DNA of 33,745 bases from Spirogloea muscicola (taxonomy: Eukaryota; Streptophyta; Zygnematophyceae; Spirogloeales; Spirogloeaceae), in NCBI GenBank assembly GCA_009602725.1, contig WELB01000407.1, forward strand, positions 1 to 33,745, given 5' to 3'. Shown piece after piece: positions 21,094 to 31,700 of this stretch. The stretch's first letter is position 1. Each line of letters starts with the position of its first letter. Below the pieces are notes generated by a model. That model was not told the origin of the DNA, ran no database searches, and was given only the letters and a program-made list of their open reading frames with translations. The position numbers were made by a program, and so were the translations under genes.

Positions 21094-24000
21094 TCAAGCT
21101 GCTACGGAAGTCTTGGAAACCATTGAGGCCACCTCAGCCGCACTTTCATAAGCAGCCTCCACGCATCTGCCCAACGCTACCCCTGCTACGTAGTTGCCAC
21201 CCAAAAGAAGGCCATCCAGCCCAGCATCCTGCGCAGGGTGTGGTTGATTTGGGTGCTAGTTAGTGTATGTAACATGATGAGCATCCTGAGTAAGTCGGAA
21301 GTAAGAGCTTGACTCACGCCCTCGCTCAAGGCATTAGCATACGGATACTCTCAAGACGAATACCTGATCTTGTGGCTCAATCTTTACCTGTTGACGACTT
21401 GTAGCTCAATCTATCTGTTGACTACGGCCCAGCAAGCAGAAGCGTACATCCTGCATGCCTTAGGGCAAGTATGGCACGGTTGCAGGGGGCTAGAGTACCA
21501 ACACAATCAATGGACCAAGCTACACTGGTGAGTTGGACCTCCATCCGAAAGCTGACCTTGAGTCCCTGGCGAGCCTCCTCGAGCGTGTCAAGGTGGCCAA
21601 CATTGAATTGAGGGATGGCAGTTGGCCAAACTCGGCAGCCATGGGCTGTAGGTAATGGGGCATCGTCCCTCAGCAGCATAGTCCGCAAGTCCTTATCAAC
21701 AGCTGCTACGATGGCATCTTCACCCTGCAGAAGTCGTCGAGACTGCACTTTCAGTGAGGGGCATCCATGCAACATAGTAGAGACAGTCTGCCATGGCCTC
21801 ATAGCTGGTACTGTCTTCTCATCTGATCCAGTGCAAATGACAGTGTGAAGCCATGTGAACGATAGCGGGAAGAGCATCAGAACTACATGTCGGAACAATT
21901 ATTGAGGGGATACACAGGATTGAACATGCCTTGGTAGTAATCTCCTCATTTGTGGCTCCACCAATGTAGCACAAAAGGAGTGTGCGACCCTTGGGAGCTC
22001 TGTTTGGAAACAGTGATGAGCTGTAGATAGTACCTGCATGATTTCAGCAGCACGGTTCCAGATACAAGTCAAGGCAGCATGAGTGCAGGGCCCTTGCGTC
22101 AACATCTGCTTAGATTGGCACTTCAAAATATTTGTGCACCATATATAGCTTGCTAACGTCCAACCTCAATTGACAAAGATAGGAGGGCCACCCTCTCAAC
22201 AACAGACTGACCTAGGGTCTGAATGCCTTGACTTCGGGGATGGAGCTGCCCAAAGCCTTTGAGCTCTCCGTTGACCAATCGGTCTTCTCTGATGGCAGAA
22301 GATGGGTAAGAGACAGTGACGGCACAGACTGGCGGATAGTAAAACTTCGCCAAGGCATCAGCTGCACGCGGCTGCAAAATTTGAGCAAGTAGGCGATCAG
22401 CGACAATTGAAGAGCTTCAGAACGGCACATGAAGGAATCGGTATGTACTTCTAAGAAAAGAAGTTTGTCAATTTACAAAGTCTGTGGAGTTGGGCTAGGT
22501 AATGACAGCTTATTGCAGCCAAAAGCATGGGCCATCAACCAGAGGAGGAAGGTCAGCAGATACCGCTGTTGGCCGGAGAATTTTGCTGGCGATCCTAGAG
22601 GGTACGGTGAGGATGACCTTCTTGGCCAGGACTGTCTGTGGACCCGAGGGGGTGCTGTATGATAATCTGAAACCTTCCTCAGTCTTGTTGATGTCGATCA
22701 GCTCCCATTTCACCTTCACCTTCTCTCCAAGCCTAGTGACAGGAATGAATTTGAGATGAAGATGAGACAGCAGCACAAGCCTGGCACAACTCGGCGGACG
22801 TGCACATGTGCACGTGTGCTAGTGGAGGGAACAGAAAGCTGGGAGTGTGCAGGAGAAGGTTCTAAACCTGTGGACCGGGATGCAAGGGCGGAGGACAGGA
22901 GAGGCCTCTGGAGAGCCTTACTGAGCGGCAATGGCATTAGGGAGAGTGCTGAGGCCCCTCTTGAAAGACCCGACCGTCTGGCCCTTGACCACAGGTAACC
23001 TCCTGCACAGCACTTGGCGGAGGATGACAATGAGGACAAATCACTACGGCCCAGAGCAGCTTGGATTGCGAGCAGCGGCTCTTGGAGGACGAGCTTCCGT
23101 CTCCCTCGCCTCATTTCGGTACCACAAGCCGTGGGAGAGATCTCATCCCGCATCCAAGGAGCCCGAGCCTACTGCAGGCCGACGACTGTGGAAGCAAGGC
23201 CGAGATCCTCACGGGTCGGGGGGCGGAGAGGGGTTGGCACGGCGGTCCTGGATGAGCTGCAGGCTTCCTCCCAGGATGCTGCCTCCAATCTGCTCCAGCC
23301 TCCACACCTTTCCAAATGCTGCTTTCATGCTGAGCTTGGAGGGGTCGCCGGCGTACACGCCTGGGGCAACGCGTGGGAGACGGAAGAGCAGGACGTGTCG
23401 TGGAATGGATACTTGCCAATTGCCACAACACTACCAACACAGAGGCATGCAGCATAGAATATGCAGGCCCGGAGCTTCATGTAATCTTGTTGTCAGCAGC
23501 ACAATGACAGAGGGCGTGCAAAATGCCAGTTGGCAGCAGCTTCGAGGTGATTGAAGCTGCGTGCCGTGACTCGGCGAGCAGCAGTCAGCACGGCTGGTCA
23601 CGCGACGTGCATTGTGCGCTCTCGACCTGCATTGGGCTGTCGTGAGCACAGCCCAGGGTCTGGCTGCTCAAACAAGGCAGCGGATCCCACTGCCGCCAGG
23701 GGCAGGCTTGCGCACCGGAGCAGAAGGGCTCGATGAGGCGCTCGAACACCTCGGCGCCCAGGTTGCGGCGCACAAACTCCTCCACGCTCTCCTCCTTGCC
23801 GGCGGGCGGCGGCGGGCGGAGGCCCGCGGCGCCGAGGCCGGCGCGCAGCTTGCCCCAGGGGCTCAGGAGGTCGAAGAAGGGCAGGTCGGCGGGGCCGGCG
23901 GGCACGGGCCGCAGGCGGCCGCGCCAGAGGACGAAGCGCGGGCTGTCGGGGTCGCCCAGCACCAGGTCGCCCAGGAGGCCGCTGTCGGCCGCCATGGTGA

Positions 24001-24357
24001 GCATGGCGGTGCTGGGCTGGAAGCTGTTGGGGCCCTCCTCCCACAAATACCCCGCCCCCTCGTCCGCCACCGTCGTCACATTCCCGCCCACGCGCGCGCC
24101 CGCCTCCGTCACCAGCAGCCGCGGCACCGCCGCGCCGTGCCGCGTGGCCAGCGCCTGCGCCGTGCACAGCCCCGAGATGCCCCCGCCCACGACCACGCAG
24201 TCGAACGGCGGCGGCGGGGNAGCGCCGCCATGGCCGCCGCCGGGTGCGCAGGCCGGCGCGGGGCTGCGGGCTGCCGGGGCTGCCGAGGGAGAGGGGTTGG
24301 GGTTGGCCCGCCCAGCTGGGCACTCGGCCCCTTATCCTGCCAGGCGAGAAGGCGCAT
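21094..24357 (-). CDS. PPOX: Protoporphyrinogen IX oxidase, plastid type, 8 exons, 5' end unresolved
   Basis: The enzyme oxidises protoporphyrinogen IX to protoporphyrin IX with FAD and O2, the last step shared by chlorophyll and haem synthesis. Exons on the minus strand: 23716 up to the start, 23213-23360, 22922-23002, 22564-22732, 22212-22371, 21930-22033, 21557-21724, 21094-21228. All phases agree and give 481 residues from the conserved VVVGGGISG FAD-binding motif (24196). Landmarks in order: GYLWEEGPNSFQPS, GRLRPVPAGPADLPFFD, ERLIEPFCSG joined to VYAGDPSKLSMKAAFGKVWR, KGQTVGSFKRGL, YYPPVCAVTVSYP, GELKGFGQLHPR, CYIGGATNEE, VGHLD, GGNYVAGVALG. The intron at 21725-21929 begins GC. The start is uncertain. 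ATGs at 24357 and 24231 open a proline/alanine-rich, transit-peptide-like frame, but it is out of frame with the catalytic part across the ambiguous base N at 24220. The catalytic frame itself has no ATG before an upstream TAA. One base missing at N would join them. Confidence 0.93.
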
Positions 24358-24590
24358 GACATTGAACGTGAGTGAGGCCAATTCCTGCCTTACGAATGGA
24401 AGTCCTGTTACGGGGTCATGAGCTAGCCAGGGGGGGACACCAACATCCCCGAGTGAGCACATGCATATCTGACAGGCTAGGCTGAGGAGCCAGACCACCA
24501 CCACGGAAGCCATTAGCCTGGGCTACTGCACGCCCAGCACGCCGGTGTGTCGCAAGTGCCTGGGAGCCCTGTAGACTCAATGCGCTGGGG
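24340..24590 (-). repeat. Retroelement 3'-end remnant, copy A
   Basis: This is the first of three related units (A here, B at 24594-24742, C at 26446-26690). Read on the minus strand it encodes the tail of a retroelement protein: ALAQANGFRGGG, then LSLSDMHVLTRG. In copy A the normal Tyr-stop is lost by mutation and the frame runs on to a TGA near 24418. The outer part (24340-24417) matches the 3' flank of copy C (26446-26513), which includes AGAAGGCGC and GAGGCCAATTC. It therefore reaches into the presumed 5' end of PPOX. Confidence 0.7.
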
Positions 24591-24593
24591 TAA

Positions 24594-24742
24594 TGAGCTA
24601 GCTAAGGGGACACTGATGTCCCCGAGTCAGCACATGCATATCTGACAAGCTAAGCTGAGGAGCCAAACCACCACCACGGAAGCCATTAGCCTGGGCTAAT
24701 GCACGCCAAGCACGCTGGTGTGTCGCAAGTGCCTGGGAAGCG
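24594..24742 (-). repeat. Retroelement 3'-end remnant, copy B
   Basis: This tandem partner of copy A is near-identical over about 145 bp (shared AAGCCATTAGCCTGGGCTA, ACATGCATATCTGACA). The minus strand encodes THQRAWRALAQANGFRGGG and LSLSDMHVLTRGH, with the terminal Tyr codon changed to His and the stop displaced. The A/B pair arose by tandem duplication or by two insertions at nearby sites. Confidence 0.72.
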
Positions 24743-24769
24743 CTCGCCCATAGAGAAAGAGGGGCCTGG

Positions 24770-25664
24770 TGTGCGTCAGAGCGACTGTGGCGAGCGAGGG
24801 GCCGAGCCTGGAGAGCTGGCCGCTCATGTTCTGCGCTGTTCCCACGGCGGAGAGCGGACGGCGGCCCACAACCGCCTCCAGGATGCGATGCATGGCATCC
24901 TGGTGGAGGGTGGCTTCTCGGTGGCAGCGGAGAACTCCGCCGTCATGCCGCTCCAGCAAAGGGCCGACGGTCTCCACCCACGTCGCGTAGACTTTGTGGC
25001 CACCCTACAAGCTGGCGGGCCACGTCTTATCCTGGACGTGGTTACCACAGACGCATACGACCGCTCAAACCCAGCCCAATGTGCCATCAAGGCTGGGTAT
25101 GCAGTCGCCTGCGCCGCTCGAGCTAAGGAGCTCAAATTCGCTGATCATCCGCGGGAAGACGAGTTCTTCCCGCTGGCTATCGACACGCATGGGGCGTTGG
25201 GCGCTCGGTGGCTCGAGCTGCTCAACCAGCTCGCCCGCCACGCCATCGTCCGCCGCTTCCATGGGGAGCCGGTGGACTTTCCTGCAGCCGGGTCGCTAGT
25301 GCAGGTGTACCGTATGCGCTTGGCCGTCTCGTTGCTGCTGGCTCGCCCGCCACGCCATCGTCCGCCGCTTCCATGGGGAGCCGGGGAATTTTCCTGCAGC
25401 CGGGTCGCTAGCGCAGGTGTACCGGATGCGCTTGGCCGTCTCGCTGCAGAGGTCTATGGCCCGCGCGCTGCACCTGCGTGCCGGCAGAGCCCTCGCTGCT
25501 GCCTCTGGCTCTGGCCAGGGGACCCACTTCCAGGAGCCTAGCTTCTCTACGCCTTGCATCTGCGTGCTGGCCGTGCTCTCGCTGCGGCCTCCGGCTTTCG
25601 TCAGGGGGATAGTTTACCGGCAGCTAGTCTGTCGGATGTGAGGCTCCTCACTCGTAACTACTAA
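24770..25664 (+). pseudogene. Retroelement protein C-terminal domain, broken copy
   Basis: The plus strand reads a Cys/His segment (ELAAHVLRCSHGGERTAAHN), then RRVDFVATLQAGGPRLILDV, FADHPREDEFFPLAIDTHG, LGARWLELLNQLARHAI, and finally RMRLAVSLQRSMARALHLRA and LLTRNY before TAA (25662-25664). I recognise this arrangement from the C-terminal region of reverse-transcriptase-type proteins in algal and other non-LTR retroelements; that is from memory, not a search. A 112-bp tandem duplication (25229-25340 and 25341-25452) shifts the frame, and a second partial repeat sits near 25551. The copy is therefore dead. The most intact frame is 24699-25541. Confidence 0.7.
25229..25452 (+). repeat. 112-bp tandem duplication inside the retroelement copy
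   Basis: Two successive units begin GCTCGCCCGCCACGCCATCG and end in the segment encoding QVYRMRLAVSL. Their spacing is 112 bp, not a multiple of three, so the second unit is in a different frame. Differences between units are few (for example GTGGAC versus GGGAAT), so the duplication is recent compared with the spread of the family. Confidence 0.9.
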
Positions 25665-25811
25665 GTGGTCCATCCTCCCCCGTTCTGCCATAGCCTCTTC
25701 AGGCCCCGCAGTCGCTGCTTAGCTCGTAGTCTGGCCCCTTCGAACCTTGTCAATTCTTTTCGGGCTGGCTTCTCACAGCCCTTGCCCCCATTGGATGAGC
25801 CACTTCTTCTA
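25551..25811 (+). repeat. 260-bp direct repeat, left copy (partner 26797-27058)
   Basis: This segment and 26797-27058 are close to identical. Both run from the codons for LHLRAGRALAAASGFRQGDS through the stop codon, a shared 3' flank (CTGCCATAGCCTCTTCAGG), and one hairpin module (GGGCTGGCTTCTCACAGCCC). This shows that the hairpin is part of the retroelement 3' untranslated end in these two copies, about 100 bp after the stop. Confidence 0.85.
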
Positions 25812-25822
25812 GCTTCTCTGAC

Positions 25823-25885
25823 CTTTGTAAGGCTTGAATTGGCCTCCCTTTCAATTCCATGCGCACCGCGCGCCTTCTCTCTGAC
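25823..25885 (+). repeat. 60-bp inverted repeat, left arm (right arm 26446-26508)
   Basis: GGCTTGAATTGGCCTCCCTT and GCGCACCGCGCGCCTTCTCT here are the reverse complement of sequence at 26446-26508. A third, weaker copy in the inverted sense is at about 24345-24400. A diverged direct copy is at about 28339-28385 (CGCACCGCGCCTTC). The box follows the hairpin module on the plus strand and follows the stop codon in minus-strand copies A and C, so it is probably part of the element 3' untranslated region. Confidence 0.8.
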
Positions 25886-26035
25886 CTGAGGCTGCTTAGC
25901 AGGAAATACTGAGTAATACGTAGCTGCTTTGTTTCTTGTTGTGCTTGTTTCTCTTAGCGCTTCCCCTGGGCTTCTTCTCGTATTTGTTTTGGGCTGGCTT
26001 TTCCAGCCCCTATCGTTAATGGGCGAGCACTTTCT

Positions 26036-26085
26036 TCTGTCCTGTTGTCCTGTCCTGTCCTGCCCTGTCCTGTCCTGTTGTCCAT
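26036..26085 (+). repeat. (TGTCC)n pentanucleotide repeat
   Basis: About nine imperfect units of TGTCC, with TGCCC and TTGTCC variants, lie between two hairpin modules. This is a simple sequence repeat with no coding meaning. Confidence 0.9.
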
Positions 26086-26108
26086 TCCTTTGGGCTGGCC
26101 TCTCCCAG

Positions 26109-26110
<2 letters not shown>

Positions 26111-26143
<33 letters not shown>
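26111..26143 (+). repeat. (TC)n dinucleotide repeat
   Basis: This is an uninterrupted TC tract of about 33 bp, placed exactly between the hairpin (26092-26110) and the GGGTGAGC tail of that module. It appears to have expanded inside the module's pyrimidine linker. Confidence 0.95.
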
Positions 26144-26146
<3 letters not shown>

Positions 26147-26160
26147 GGGTGAGCTCTAGT

Positions 26161-26242
26161 TGGTGGCAGAAGGGCTTCGTATCTGCCATCTAGTATCCAG
26201 GCATCGGTTAGCGACCTTTATGTTTTGACCCGTGGTTACTGA
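26161..26242 (+). pseudogene. Retroelement C-terminal remnant ending LTRGY
   Basis: The frame ending at TGA 26240-26242 reads SVSDLYVLTRGY, the same terminus as in the other copies (LSLSDMHVLTRGY in copy C; LMLLTRGY at 27340). Upstream only a short decayed stretch is recognisable. From here to about 26440 I see nothing else beyond a weak GACCCG/CGGGTC inverted repeat around the stop. Confidence 0.55.
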
Positions 26243-26445
26243 GCGGGTCAATCTACTGTAGCTTATGTAGGTCTTAAGATGTGCTTGCCTTTTTGTACTT
26301 GGCCATTTGGCCTTCGTTTGTTTCAAATACACGATATTCTCTTCCCAGCCACCAGTTAATCTGGCAGCGCTTACTTCTTTCTTCTTTCGGCAGCCGCTGG
26401 CTGGATCGCTGGATCTCCTCCAGCGGCTTGCCCGTCAGGAGAGAA

Positions 26446-26690
26446 GGCGCGCGGTGCGCATGAAATTGAAAGGGAGGCCAATTCAAGCCCTACAAATGAC
26501 CTGTTAACTCGGTAATGAGCTGGCTAAGGGGGACACTAATATCCCCGAGTGAGCACATGCATATCTGACAAGCTAAGCTGAGGCACCAAACCACCACCAC
26601 GGAAGCCATTAGCCTGTGCTAATGCACGACCGGCACGCTGGTGTATCGCGAGTGCCTGGGAGCGCTGTAGACTCAATGATAACCGCATTC
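26446..26690 (-). pseudogene. Retroelement 3'-end remnant, copy C (minus strand)
   Basis: On the minus strand this reads MRLSLSLQRSQALAIHQRAG, then RALAQANGFRGGG and LSLSDMHVLTRGY with TAG at about 26536. It is the best preserved of the three A/B/C units because the terminal Tyr and stop are intact. Its 3' flank is the inverted-repeat box at 26446-26508. It lies back to back with the plus-strand copy starting near 26697, so two element ends of opposite strand meet here. Confidence 0.75.
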
Positions 26691-26696
26691 TATGTC

Positions 26697-26910
26697 CCGC
26701 AGGCGTGGTGAGCCGGCTGACTTCAACGCCGCTGGCTTGTGGGCTCAGGTGTATCGTATGCGCTTGTCCGTCTCCCTCCAGCGGTCCATGGCCCACGCCT
26801 TGCATCTGCGTGCTGGCCGTGCTCTTGCTGCGGCCTCCGGCTTTCGTCAGGGGGATAGTTTTCCGGCAGCTAGTCTGTAGGATGTGAGGCTCCTTACTCG
26901 TAACTACTGA
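26697..26910 (+). pseudogene. Retroelement C-terminal remnant
   Basis: The plus strand reads RRRGEPADFNAAGLWAQVYR, MRLSVSLQRSMAHALHLRAG and RALAAASGFRQGDSFPAASL, then an in-frame TAG (a Ser-Asp position in the sister copy). The remaining codons give DVRLLTRNY before TGA at 26908-26910. The premature TAG and the loss of everything upstream make it a pseudogene. It continues into the 260-bp repeat and a hairpin module at 27009. Confidence 0.75.
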
Positions 26911-27056
26911 GTGGTCCATCCTCCCCCCCTTCTGCCATAGCCTCTTCAGGCCCCACAGTCGCTGCTTAGCTCGCAGTTAGGCCCCTTCAAACCTTGTCAA
27001 TTCTTTTCGGGCTGGCTTCTCACAGCCCTTGCCCCCATTGGGAAAGCCACTTCTTC

Positions 27057-27084
27057 TATAGCATGCAACGATGGCTTGCGGGAC
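27057..27084 (+). repeat. 28-bp exact direct repeat, first copy (second 27503-27530)
   Basis: TATAGCATGCAACGATGGCT followed by TGCGGGAC occurs identically at 27057-27084 and 27503-27530, about 446 bp apart. Each follows a hairpin module tail ending CTTCTTC. The later copy is preceded by CAATGATAGCCGCATTATA, which resembles 26676-26694. The pattern fits a repeated 3'-to-5' element junction or a target duplication around the 27085-27502 segment. Confidence 0.85.
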
Positions 27085-27340
27085 GACCCCTAGACCTAAA
27101 ACCCGTCAGGCCATTGACCGGCGGCCGGGTCTGCCAGGGACGATGCCCAGCTTCAACGCTGCCGGTTCGCTCGCCCAAGTCTTCCGTATGCGCCTGGCTG
27201 TATCGTTACAACGCTCCCTTGCCTACGCCGTCCACACGCGAGCAGGCCGTGCTATGGCCGCCGCCTCTGGGTCTCGGCGGAATGCCTCTTTCCATGCAGC
27301 GAGCTACTCCGACCTGATGTTGCTCACTCGCGGGTACTGA
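27071..27340 (+). pseudogene. Retroelement C-terminal remnant, 89 codons
   Basis: The open frame starts at ATG 27071 and ends at TGA 27338-27340. It includes FNAAGSLAQVFRMRLAVSLQ, RSLAYAVHTRAGRAMAAASG and SYSDLMLLTRGY. The tail is uninterrupted, but the element is truncated: only the last domain is present, and the first 30 residues have no counterpart in the sister copies. A hairpin module follows at 27437. Confidence 0.65.
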
Positions 27341-27539
27341 GCTTCCCTCTGCATTGTCTGGTGTTTTGTAGTGTTTTGTGGTGTAGTCCTTTTTCGGCAC
27401 CTCTTTCTTTGGCTTTGACCATTGTCCATTCTCTTTGGGCTGGCTTTGCCAGCCCCTCTTCTCTACGGGCGAGCACTTTCTTCTTCAATGATAGCCGCAT
27501 TATATAGCATGCAACGATGGCTTGCGGGACACTAGCATG

Positions 27540-27920
27540 CCCTAAGCTACCCGCCCGACTACGTCGGCGGGCATCGACATACAGAGCCAGGCGATGGAGG
27601 AGGGAAGACCACTTCCTTCCGTAGCCGCCGTATATGTGCAAGGCGCATGGGAAGAAGTGGTCGCCCCGGGGGTGGTCATTGTAGTGCCTCTCCTTCTTCC
27701 TCTCCATATGATGTGTCGCCCAACCTGGCACAGACCGGTGTGGGTGCCCCTGGTTGGAATGCGTCGATGAGAACGACATCAAGGAGGAGACGTGGCCCAC
27801 CGCTCCGGGGTCGCAACCACATCCAGACGCCTGATGTAGGGTCTGCCGCGCTTCTGGAGTACCGGCATGATGCCTGGCACCTCCATGGCCGCATGGTAAC
27901 CAGGAGAGAGTTGGGACTGC
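27540..27920 (-). pseudogene. Retroelement C-terminal domain remnant, frameshifted, minus strand
   Basis: Minus-strand fragments in order are PYIRRLDVVATPERW, then (new frame) GGPRLLLDVVLIDAF, then (new frame) HYNDHPRGDHFFPCALHIYG and GRKWSSLLHRLALYVDAR. These line up with RRVDFVATLQAGGPRLILDV, HPREDEFFPLAIDTHG and ARWLELLNQLARHA of the plus-strand copy at 24770-25664. At least two frameshifts separate the parts. It is an inverted, older copy of the same family. Confidence 0.65.
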
Positions 27921-28754
27921 GCTTTGTGGCCCCTTCGGACCTTGTCAACTCTTTCCGGGCTGGCTGTCTCACAGCCCTCGCCCACTTCGGGAGAGCCACT
28001 TGCCATGGCATCTTCTTTGGCTCTTTGGATTCTGTCCATACTTTTCGGGCTGGCCTCTGCCCGCCCCTCTTCTACATGGGCGCGCACTTTCTTCTTGCCT
28101 TGGCCATCCCTGCTCGGTTGGCTGGCCATTCCCAGCCCCTATGGGCGAGCCCTTCTTCATACGTGGCTGCTTCGTTTCTTTTCAGTGCTTGTTGTTCTTC
28201 GTACTTCCCCTGGCCCCATTTCGTCCTTTGTTCATTCTTTTCTGGGCTGGCTTTTTCCAGCCCCTATCCTCAATGGGCGAGCCCTTTCCCATTGCCGACC
28301 TGCTTCTCGCTCCTGGCAGGACGTTGTGGCTTTGTTCTGGCCTCCCTCATTCACTTTCGCACCGCGCCTTCACGCTCCTTCTGCCGTCTTAGCCTCTCCC
28401 GCCTGGCAAAACGCGCTTTTCATCCCAGTCTGCAGCCGCTCCAACACCGCCCCCCCCCGCCCCTGGTCCTTGTCCTTCTTCTGTGGGTTGGCCCTAACGC
28501 AGCTCTGTCGAACCTTCTTCCTTCTTTTGCGGGCTGGCTTTCCCCAGCCCTCGCCCCCTCTGGAAGAGCTGCTTCCATGCCTAGCACTGCTAATGTTGCA
28601 AATAAGCTAACTCTATGGCTTTGAGAAGCACCCACCATGATAAGCTCTTTGCAGCCCTCGGCCCACTAGGAAATGCTGCGTCTCCGACAGACGCACCGCC
28701 TGCCCGCCACCAAGAAAACTGCATAAATGTCTCTGCCGGCGCACGGCGACGTGT

Positions 28755-31700
28755 CTAGACGCTGTGCAGCTGGAAGCGTGCCTCCCTCAGCGTCGGCAGG
28801 CCCTCGACCCCCTCCAGCACCATCGGTCGCTTCTCGCCCTCGGGCTTGGACACCCAGATTCTGCACAGGTCAGCCCGCTCGCTCAGACCCTCTCACACCC
28901 TGTCAGCTTCAGCAGGCGGCTGCTATCACAACACAAGCTCGAGGCGTCGCTGCCTCTCTATCCGGTCCCAAGTGCTGACGGCGCGTCAATCCTTCCGGCA
29001 CTATATGCACGCCCAAGCAATGCACGCCTGAAGAGCGTACGTGTCGTATGGAAGCTTGTAGGTGCCTTCCCCAGTCACTCGAAGGTGGATCTTGTCCGTT
29101 GTGCACCTAAGCCCTAAGCTGAGCTCCCTAAACACCCCCTGCTTGTAAGAATGACTGCAAAAGCCCGCACGTACTGGCAATGTGAGCAACATGCCAGGCC
29201 ATGGCCATCAGCGCAACCTGGAGGGCATGCAGTCTCCTGCATGTTGTTGAAGCTCGACACAGCAACCAGAGCAAGCAACCTTCTCTACCACAAAGAGTGT
29301 CAGAATATAGCTTTCCTTAAAGAGCAGAAGGTTGAGAGAAGTGACCACGTGCCTGATGCCATCATCCTCGTACAAGCAGCACGTAGACAGGCCTTCGTGG
29401 GGATGAGGAAATACACGCAAGATGCGTGATGATTCGTCATGCAGTGCCGAGAAGTCATGGGCCTCGGCAGTCATTGGCAGTATACTTCCAGCCGGCACGA
29501 AGAGCGGAAGTCTCTCGATTGGAGCGGCCACCTTGGCAACAGTTCCTGGCTCAAAGCTTTCTGGACCCCAGAAATCCCACCAGCAGGTTGGCCCCTTTGG
29601 CAGGTAGACCTCGCGCTGGCGTGAACCGTTCTCCAACACTGGTGCAGCCAGCAAGCTGCTCCCAACCATGACTTCATCGCAATCTCGCCATGTTGCATCG
29701 TCGTCATCACCATACTCCCAAAACGTTGGACGCACAAGTGGCTTGTGCAGCTCCGCAGCCTCCCTGGCCAGCAAATGGCGACACACTGATTGTACATGGG
29801 ACTTGGCCTAGGATCCAACAAGTTCTCACTCTCTCTGCAGCAGTCAGGGAGGGGCTCGTTCACCTGAAGAGAGTGTACAGGTAGGGGACGAGGCGGTAGC
29901 GCAAGCGAATGGCGAATCGGATGGCTGAGGAGACAGATGGGTGGAGCCACGGCGTTGTCACAGAGCCGTCTGTCTTCCACGAGTTTGTTATGAAGCGGGG
30001 GTGCAGGAGACCGCTCTGAAACCACCGCACTAGGAGCTCTTTGTCTGGAGATGGCCCTGGAATAAGTGCAACAGGACAATCATGCAGACCTCTCATCTTT
30101 CTTTGCCCCCAGATCCCTCAAGTGGGACAAGGGCAGGAGCAGCAGCTGCTGCACATCCATCTGCTGCCTGCAGATCGATGTTCAAAGACTATAGAGGCTA
30201 AAGAGGCAACATTGCCTTCAAGGCAGAAGTCACGGACCTGCAAAACCCCCCACGTCGTGTCCTATATTGAATAGACCTGAGAGTCCCATGGTCAACCCGG
30301 TCCTCAGATTCCATCGCAATGTCTTCCAGCTTGTGTTGTTGTCTCCACTCCATGTCTGCGCGTATCTCTGCTCCAGGCAAAAACAGTATGCAAGTCAACA
30401 GATGCTGGCGATGCCGTGCATTGCAACACTGCATGAAGTGCTTGCTAAACCGACGCGCCAAAATTAGCCCTCAACTAGATTCACCAGTTGTTGCACATCG
30501 GAAATACCTGAATTCCTGGACAGCCTGCCCTTGTCACCGTGTACGGCCGCTCAGAAGGTGCGTGCTGCTGCTGCTGCTCCAGCGATGCTCGAGTCATGAG
30601 CAGTGCATGTAAAGGTCTGACAAGATCTAGAGCTAAAGGCTCTCCAAAGGCATCACATTGTGCATCCTCGTCACCAATGTCGTACTCATTGTTATCTGCA
30701 AACAGGCCAATGTTCCTCAGCATGTGGATACACCCATGAGTAGGAGCAGTGGATTGGGCTCCTCTCAGGAAGCAATGTGTCTACACCTGAATTGCATTGC
30801 CATACCATTCCAGGCAGCATCAATGCCAACATCAAGGATGGCTTCCTGCAGCCCTTCCTGCCACCACTCAATCGCATCCGGATTAGTGAAGTCTAAGTGG
30901 GCTCCCTCTCCATCCCAAAATTGACTGGTGCTCGGCTTGCCAGAGCTACTGTTGCGGATGAAGATGCCGGTGGATGCCCCATCCGCATATCGCGGGTGGT
31001 CGTCCAACAGGCAAGGCTTCAGGTTTGCTGCGACTCGCATGTTCGCTGCATGGAAATCCGCCACGAGCTTCTTCGCATCCGGAAACTTCTCCCTGGCCAC
31101 CACCACCATATTGAGTCATTAAGATCCGGGCCCCAGCTCGGCAGGCCCGCAAACTGTCAACCTGACTCACACGTGTATCTGACCTGCAAGAGTCAGCGCA
31201 ACAAGCCAACTAAGCTCCACTGCAGTCTTTGCGGTCTGCGCGGGACGTTCTAACAAATGCTAAGCCTGAGCTTTGCTGAGCGGCTTTCTATGCAGCGACA
31301 GGCTCAGTACGAATTGCAGTACTTGCGCACTTGTTCCAGTGGAAGACGTATCTACGCTTGCCGATGGTGGTGTAGCCGGACCCAAAGTGGAAAGCGCTGC
31401 AGGGAATGGCATATTCCTGGCACTGCCTGATGAACTGTTCAATTTTCTGCTGCGCATTTGCTGCATCCGCAAGAGGCATGGCTGTGCAATGGTAGCCCAG
31501 GGTCCACCGTGGGCCAAACATCATCGGGCCTGTCAGTCGTGCAAATTGCGCCACGACATCTGCAATGGAGGGGCCCAGAAATAGATAGAAGTCGAGGTCG
31601 CCCTCCTCTGCCTCGTACGTTCGGAATCGACCATAGTAATTGTTGTGCTCGCAGCCGAGATCGAAGGTGGCTGCTGCAAGGTTGTCGTAGAAGAGCCCAT

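Follow-up and report, generated by a model that had tools for sequence, protein, structure and literature searches.

The array of hairpin modules at positions 25745-28581 of contig WELB01000407.1 of Spirogloea muscicola (assembly GCA_009602725.1) very probably consists of defunct copies of one clade of long interspersed nuclear elements (LINEs), most of them 5'-truncated, that have piled up in an intergenic stretch. The window that we analysed comprises positions 1 to 33,745 of this contig. The module is well supported as a LINE 3'-terminal hairpin, and we read it as the last 48-50 nt of the RNA of one LINE family. For copies that hold the tail alone, the best reading is insertion with severe 5' truncation, either nested or placed end to end. 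Judged from the sequence, this would be LINE debris of a known sort from a family that itself appears to be new.

LINE copies ending in the module

All ten copies of the module are on the plus strand, and four of them lie downstream of a LINE C-terminal open reading frame (ORF) on that strand: c2 in copy A, c1 in A2, c4 in El1 and c5 in El2. The C-terminal ORFs are homologous among copies by self-comparison and tblastn, and end in LLTRNY- or LLTRGY-like peptides. In each of the four ORF-linked copies the hairpin stem begins 78-98 nt past the stop codon. A preliminary description of this DNA had placed two module copies in retroelement 3' ends about 100 bp past the stop; the linkage stands, with four copies instead of two. 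The 5' start points vary among copies while the 3' module is constant. A2 and El1 are 94% identical over 264 bp, and the El1 ORF has one premature stop ahead of its terminal stop codon. Copy A, whose 3' untranslated region (UTR) follows a TGA stop at 25910-25912 and terminates in c2, is broken by A2 and by a short tail of a second LINE family, M. Copy A also contains a tandem duplication of period 112 (25229-25334 and 25341-25446).

The 3' module boundary coincides exactly with the start of a target-site duplication (TSD) for A2 (9 bp) and El2 (46 bp). The El2 repeats aligned with a score of 39, which was reached by 0 of 1000 shuffles; for A2, 8 abutting bases were matched, with the trial boundary off by one base. 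El2 lies in the minus-strand copy M1, and excising El1, El2 and one repeat from M1 restores a single open frame over the site. Eleven TSD candidates were tested with boundaries set by eye, two being alternatives for A, by a test that takes no account of repeats abutting the insert. El2 was clear, A2 and c7 fell below 0.05 against both nulls (shuffles and random places), the M-family tail fell below 0.05 against shuffles only, and the other seven candidates were above 0.05 against both. No TSD was found for copy A at either of its two alternative boundaries, and no recognisable TSD was found for c3. A2 and El2 are inserted between repeats, and c7 probably is as well; the element is therefore taken to end, at its 3' side, exactly with the module. 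The proposal that the module is a LINE 3' stem-loop was borne out by the two TSD-flanked insertions that end exactly at it, together with a stem more conserved than the loop and linker.

Features of the retroelement patch. Positions are those of the window; stem start is given for each module copy.
Feature	Position	Strand	Stem start	Basis and remarks
LINE copy A, 5'-truncated	24745..26038	+		ORFs, tblastn self-comparison; 5' boundary approximate
LINE copy A2, 262 bp, 5'-truncated	25549..25810	+		within A coding region; stop 25662-25664; ends in c1
A2 TSD, 9 bp, AGCTTCTCT	left 25540..25548, right 25811-25819	+		sequence
Module c1, type I	25762..25810	+	25762	3' terminus of A2
M-family tail, ~52 bp, inserted in A	25826..25880	+		97% inverted match to 26439-26496
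Module c2, type II	25991..26038	+	25991	3' terminus of A
Module c3	26092-26155	+	26092	alignment; stem and GGGTGAGC box separated by a CT microsatellite
LINE copy M1	26440..27926	-		tblastn pieces in different frames; stop at 26536; ends approximate
LINE copy El1, 5'-truncated	26694..27057	+		inside left TSD copy of El2; stop 26908-26910
Module c4, type I	27009..27057	+	27009	3' terminus of El1
LINE copy El2, 5'-truncated	27085..27484	+		inserted in M1 coding; stop 27338-27340
Module c5, type II	27437..27484	+	27437	3' terminus of El2
El2 TSD, 46 bp	right 27485..27530; left 26673-26693 + 27058-27084, split by El1	+		alignment
Tail-only copy with c6, type I	27927..28003	+	27957	homology from 30 nt upstream of stem; score 24, null maximum 15
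Tail-only copy with c7, type II, 83 bp	28013..28095	+	28047	El2-tail match E 4e-13
Tail-only copy with c8, shortened linker	28113..28158	+	28119	alignment, covariance model; 5' boundary a guess
Tail-only copy with c9, type II	28159..28288	+	28244	score 38.3, null maximum 25.9
Possible second M-family tail, in the c9-c10 interval	28328..28374	+		weak self-comparison match
Tail-only copy with c10, type I, most diverged	28508..28577	+	28531	self-comparison, covariance model

Copies and types of the module

A degenerate stem pattern allowing three mismatches gave 19 matches on both strands, some being one place counted on both strands and a few unrelated; 100 dinucleotide shuffles averaged 2.5. 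None of the 100 shuffles reached 19, and the ten copies in one orientation that had been described were thereby confirmed. A longer module pattern gave 5 matches against 0.00 expected. The covariance model recovered all ten copies (E 6e-8 to 1.6e-17), as expected for a model trained on those ten, and found no further convincing copy in the 33.7 kb window (next best E 0.034). Rfam gave 0 matches at gathering threshold in the window; a single match within 24300-28800 had an E of 0.7, far under its gathering score. The module was not found in the published literature by a topic-based, non-exhaustive search that did not use its letters.

The module consists of a GC-rich hairpin, a short linker, a GG..GAGC box and a pyrimidine end, which is CTTTCTTCT or CTTCTTCT. 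The two boxes reported to follow each stem are present, with GGGCGAGC exact in 4/10 copies and CTTTCTTCT exact in 3/10. Two module types were seen: c1, c4, c6 and c10 are type I, c2, c5, c7, c8 and c9 are type II, and c3 is unplaced. The branch between the types had support of 98/99 and was the sole strongly supported branch of six in a tree of nine of the ten copies, c3 being left out of all trees because of its microsatellite. Types were assigned from this tree in preference to the separate module alignment that supplied pairwise identities, because that alignment places c8 poorly. By pairwise identity the closest partners were A2 (86%) and El1 (84%) for c6, El2 (74%) for c7 and A (70%) for c9; c8 and c10 had no close partner. 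Although c10 is type I in the tree, its best pairwise identity was to c9 (66%), compared with 64-65% to A2 and El1.

The covariance match to c3 stops at 26142, and its box past the microsatellite was assigned by eye. The (TGTCC)n before c3 and the (CT)n inside it (26039-26145) seem to have arisen by expansion of UTR and linker letters that belong to the element itself. Letters resembling CTT(n)CCAT(n)GCC follow c6, c9 and c10 (28002-28020, 28284-28310 and 28571-28595), beyond the module end of other copies; two comparisons of these downstream letters were run against a null, and neither was above chance.

Tail-only copies

A tblastn search with the LINE ORF found no LINE coding fragment on their own strand around the later five modules, c6 to c10. 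This agrees with the preliminary description, with the proviso that the interval from c9 to c10 may contain a weak tail from the other LINE family. Homology reaches upstream of the stem for 30 nt in c6, about 34-40 nt in c7, 85 nt in c9 and at least 23 nt in c10, and for 213, 315 and 352 nt in the coding-linked A2, El1 and El2. The homology of c9 to the A 3' UTR opens 4 nt past the position of A's stop codon. The upstream part of c7 alone scored 16.2, under the null maximum of 17.3, and upstream of 28508 no homology above chance was found for c10. The c7 insert lies between imperfect 12/13-bp repeats, TGCCATGGCATC and TGCCTTGGCCATC (P 0.023 against shuffles and 0.039 against random places), which are probably a TSD. 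The CTTCTTC end of c8 adjoins the start of the c9 UTR homology. A composite alignment of 25732-26141 with 27927-28382 (63%) might have pointed to a long unit common to both regions; this reading was discarded, since the similarity comes from the module stretches and the alignment has large gaps.

Conservation of the stem

Identity between copies was 97% and 93% in the stem arms, compared with 66% in the loop and 46% in the linker; it was 53% in the lead, 69% in the box and 52% in the tail. The stem had been described as kept in most copies. This holds for the inner six pairs, which are formed in 58/60 cells with one G-U, whereas the full 7-bp stem is perfect in only 4/10 copies. All six pairs are retained in the alignment by c1, c2, c4 and c5, which are independently defined by their ORFs. 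When sublineages are compared, identity is 52-69% in the upstream UTR, near the shuffled level (mean 59%, maximum 75%), and 68-75% in the last 74 nt; the region boundaries in this comparison of coding and UTR identity deviate by a few bases from the stop codons given here.

Compensatory stem changes were found in 0/6 pairs across the ten copies, and 4/6 pairs never vary and are therefore uninformative on covariation. Support for the structural constraint that had been suggested, and for which compensatory changes had been proposed as a test, is for this reason limited to conserved arms and varying loops. A paired stem RNA is plausible, not proven.

Origin of the array

The insertions are consistent with target-primed reverse transcription, in which the element's reverse transcriptase (RT) would recognise the 3' tail and begin copying at the tail end. 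Copying would frequently halt early, so that insertions may hold the 3' UTR alone. Later rounds would hit earlier copies, and some insertions could be linked end to end by template jumping. By analogy with other LINEs, the RT may recognise the hairpin.

The preliminary description had proposed that the tail multiplied independently as a small non-autonomous element. A short interspersed nuclear element (SINE)-like tail of ~50-90 nt, transcribed and mobilised by the LINE enzyme, would fit the five copies that hold the tail alone and the 83-bp c7 insertion with its probable TSD; moreover, Chlamydomonas SINEs have 3' tails in common with RandI LINEs (Ohshima 2013, PMC3747384). Yet a single clade of tail-only copies was rejected among nine of the ten copies (approximately unbiased (AU) test, p 0.0005) and appeared in 0% of 200 bootstrap trees. 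The tail-only label changes 4 times, compared with a mean of 3.2 for shuffled labels, and is thus not clustered. Types I and II each contain tail-only and coding-linked copies, and the 5' ends of the tail-only copies differ, with no common head found. We regard independent multiplication as highly improbable. Local tandem duplication of one LINE tail, giving the later five as a small satellite, is very unlikely: c6 and c10 differ in type from c7, c8 and c9, and the regions downstream of c9 and c10 align no better than chance, even though tandem duplications are present locally (period 112 in A and about 175 in M copies, 24412-24738). The stem spacing of 287 bp for both c6-c9 and c9-c10 would suit a satellite, but self-similarity at that distance is weak (57% over 376 bp).

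Somewhat unlikely, as a source of the later five and of the A/c3 junction, is a small number of end-to-end template-jumping events, which would leave copies head to tail with no TSD between them. The end of c8 meets the start of the c9 UTR homology, the pyrimidine lead of c3 directly adjoins the end of A, and TSDs were not found for c6, c8, c9 and c10; end-to-end jumping by the R2 enzyme is reportedly known and was counted in favour of such events. However, c7 has the look of a nested insertion made separately, with a TSD of its own. Among themselves the later five are also only 48-66% identical (c8 being poorly aligned) and fall into two types, so a single event is unlikely for all of them. 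A further reading, in which a restriction-like-endonuclease (RLE)-like LINE with a self-sufficient, efficiently primed 50-nt hairpin tail laid down chains of tail-only copies by repeated template jumps, is quite unlikely; its enzyme would read both stem letters and shape, which would account for fixed stem letters and free loops. It is also unlikely that the stem reflects plain sequence conservation, for example as DNA or RNA bound by a protein, with the hairpin never formed. The lack of covariation and the modest folding energies would agree with this, but the arms remain complementary while the loop varies in length and sequence.

Several observations weigh against reading the array as LINE insertions that end in a constrained hairpin. 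The C-terminal ORF had no match in Pfam or among PDB sequences, and the RT lies outside the window, the copies being truncated downstream of the RT domain. The P values for the A2 and c7 TSDs (0.02-0.04) would lose significance under correction for 11 candidates. No TSD above chance was found for c6, c8, c9 and c10, so that only c7 of the later five has a likely one; the absence could be due to the age of the insertions, to template jumping from end to end or to duplication in place. The copies were first located by their stem, which biases the set toward conserved stems, and the compensatory changes noted above are lacking. Folded singly, the copies are only slightly more stable than shuffled sequence (z -0.4 to -2.8), with c6 and c7 favouring alternative pairings, and the 69% identity of the last 48 nt is little above the 62-64% of the coding ends (A2 or El1 with El2).

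Comparison with known elements

Several LINEs are known to carry 3' stem-loops that LINE enzymes recognise (PMC5135761). The module is like the stringent-type tails (UnaL2, ZfL2, SART1, R2 and monocot L1/ZmSINE2) in position and shape. Those tails show compensatory changes and varied stem letters, whereas here the stem letters are near fixed, the loops vary and there are no compensatory changes. One monocot L1 group has a conserved last 45 nt with loop UCU and 3' flank CGAG (Ohshima 2013, PMC3747384). As read by eye from the alignment, the module has TCT in the loop in 5/10 copies and CGAG after the stem in 4/10, but never both in one copy.

Zepp and ZeppL of green algae form nested insertions and arrays of mostly 3' ends through 5' truncation (PMC8226300), and nested LINE clusters are also described in PMC3446292. 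The present array is similar in its nesting in earlier copies and in its richness in 5'-truncated 3' ends. Zepp belongs to the L1 clade of LINEs and has poly(A) as its 3' repeat (PMC3747384). It differs from the present family by its poly(A) and its clusters at probable centromeres; here the C-terminal ORF looks RLE-like, poly(A) is absent and the copies occupy a small intergenic patch. The Dualen/RandI group of LINEs has an apurinic/apyrimidinic endonuclease (APE) and a PD-(D/E)XK-type endonuclease (PMC3636483) and is present in those Chlamydomonas relatives that were studied in PMC8226300. Its tails are common to SINEX elements, with 3' repeats such as (ATT)n, or (CTTT)n for SINEX-2_CR (PMC3747384). 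The window, in contrast, is without RT and APE domains, and the element here ends in the pyrimidine sequences given above.

The C-terminal ORF and the second LINE family

In RLE LINEs the endonuclease core, PD..D, follows the knuckle. The C-terminal ORF of copy A contains an RVD-x14-LDVV stretch and a degenerate C...HVLRC motif, in which one C and the spacing deviate from the knuckle. The RLE LINE knuckle is given as CX2-3CX7-8HX4C (PMC5678591). On these motifs the ORF probably recalls RLE LINEs. This resemblance was not borne out by the Pfam and PDB sequence searches, nor by an AlphaFold2 model computed from the endonuclease part as one sequence, which was of low confidence (mean predicted local distance difference test score, pLDDT, 39.5).

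Relatives of the ORF were sought in two contig collections. Two protein scans of the viral contigs (8 and 50 pattern matches) and one of the genome contigs (73 pattern matches) yielded none that was confirmed. Seven stem-pattern loci in viral contigs (L001-L007) were treated as chance. In L001-L006 the covariance match lay at the stem used for finding the loci and covered 21-35 of 68 positions (lowest E 0.00022, in L002), and L007 gave no match; full-length matches elsewhere in L004, L005 and L006 were at chance level (E 1.5 to 3). The longer type-II pattern had 0 matches in the viral collection. These collections hold viruses and prokaryotes, and absence there therefore says little about a eukaryotic element.

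The second LINE family, M, lies on the minus strand and has a like C-terminus and a different 3' end; short M tails are present as well. M1 is frameshifted and is split by El1 and El2. The M tail at 25826..25880 has CTGACCT at both edges (P 0.014 against shuffles, 0.118 against random places), and no TSD above chance was found for the possible tail at 28328..28374. Compared with the module covariance model, the M-family tails gave E values of 0.76 and 0.99, just short of significance, which hints at a distant relationship, though no kinship is claimed. An M-family copy on the minus strand contains a tandem duplication of ~175 bp (24412-24565 and 24587-24738). A2 and the 52-bp M tail were inserted within a few bases of one AGCTTCTCTGACC site in A (25540-25548, 25811-25825, 25876-25895). 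TTCTC-like sequence also occurs downstream of other M 3' ends, a possible target preference.

Genomic setting

The retroelement patch (24.34-28.6 kb) lies between two genes with Pfam matches, both on the minus strand. One encodes a flavin amine-oxidoreductase (Amino_oxidase, E 1.8e-28 for 23585-24331), which we take to be, probably, protoporphyrinogen oxidase; the other, from about 29.2 kb upward, encodes a family-31 glycosidase. The genes of the window appear to be intron-split and nuclear. By reading of the sequence only, a PI3K-related kinase-like gene is present on the plus strand near 13 kb. The open frame of the flavin oxidoreductase at 23585-24331 has no methionine ahead of its Rossmann motif, and the sole N of the window (24220) stands a short way upstream of the motif. 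An M-family copy abuts the 5' end of this ORF with its own 3' end (24330-24400, minus strand), and the M-family tail may be part of the 5' exon or promoter of the gene.

Conclusions

A puzzling array of no known role is here recast as a layered pile of LINE insertions. Its well-delimited 3' tail, with two module types, offers material for testing the choice of RNA by a LINE that is probably of RLE type. Should copying depend on the stem, stringent 3' recognition would reach another lineage; otherwise the family would be an ordinary one.

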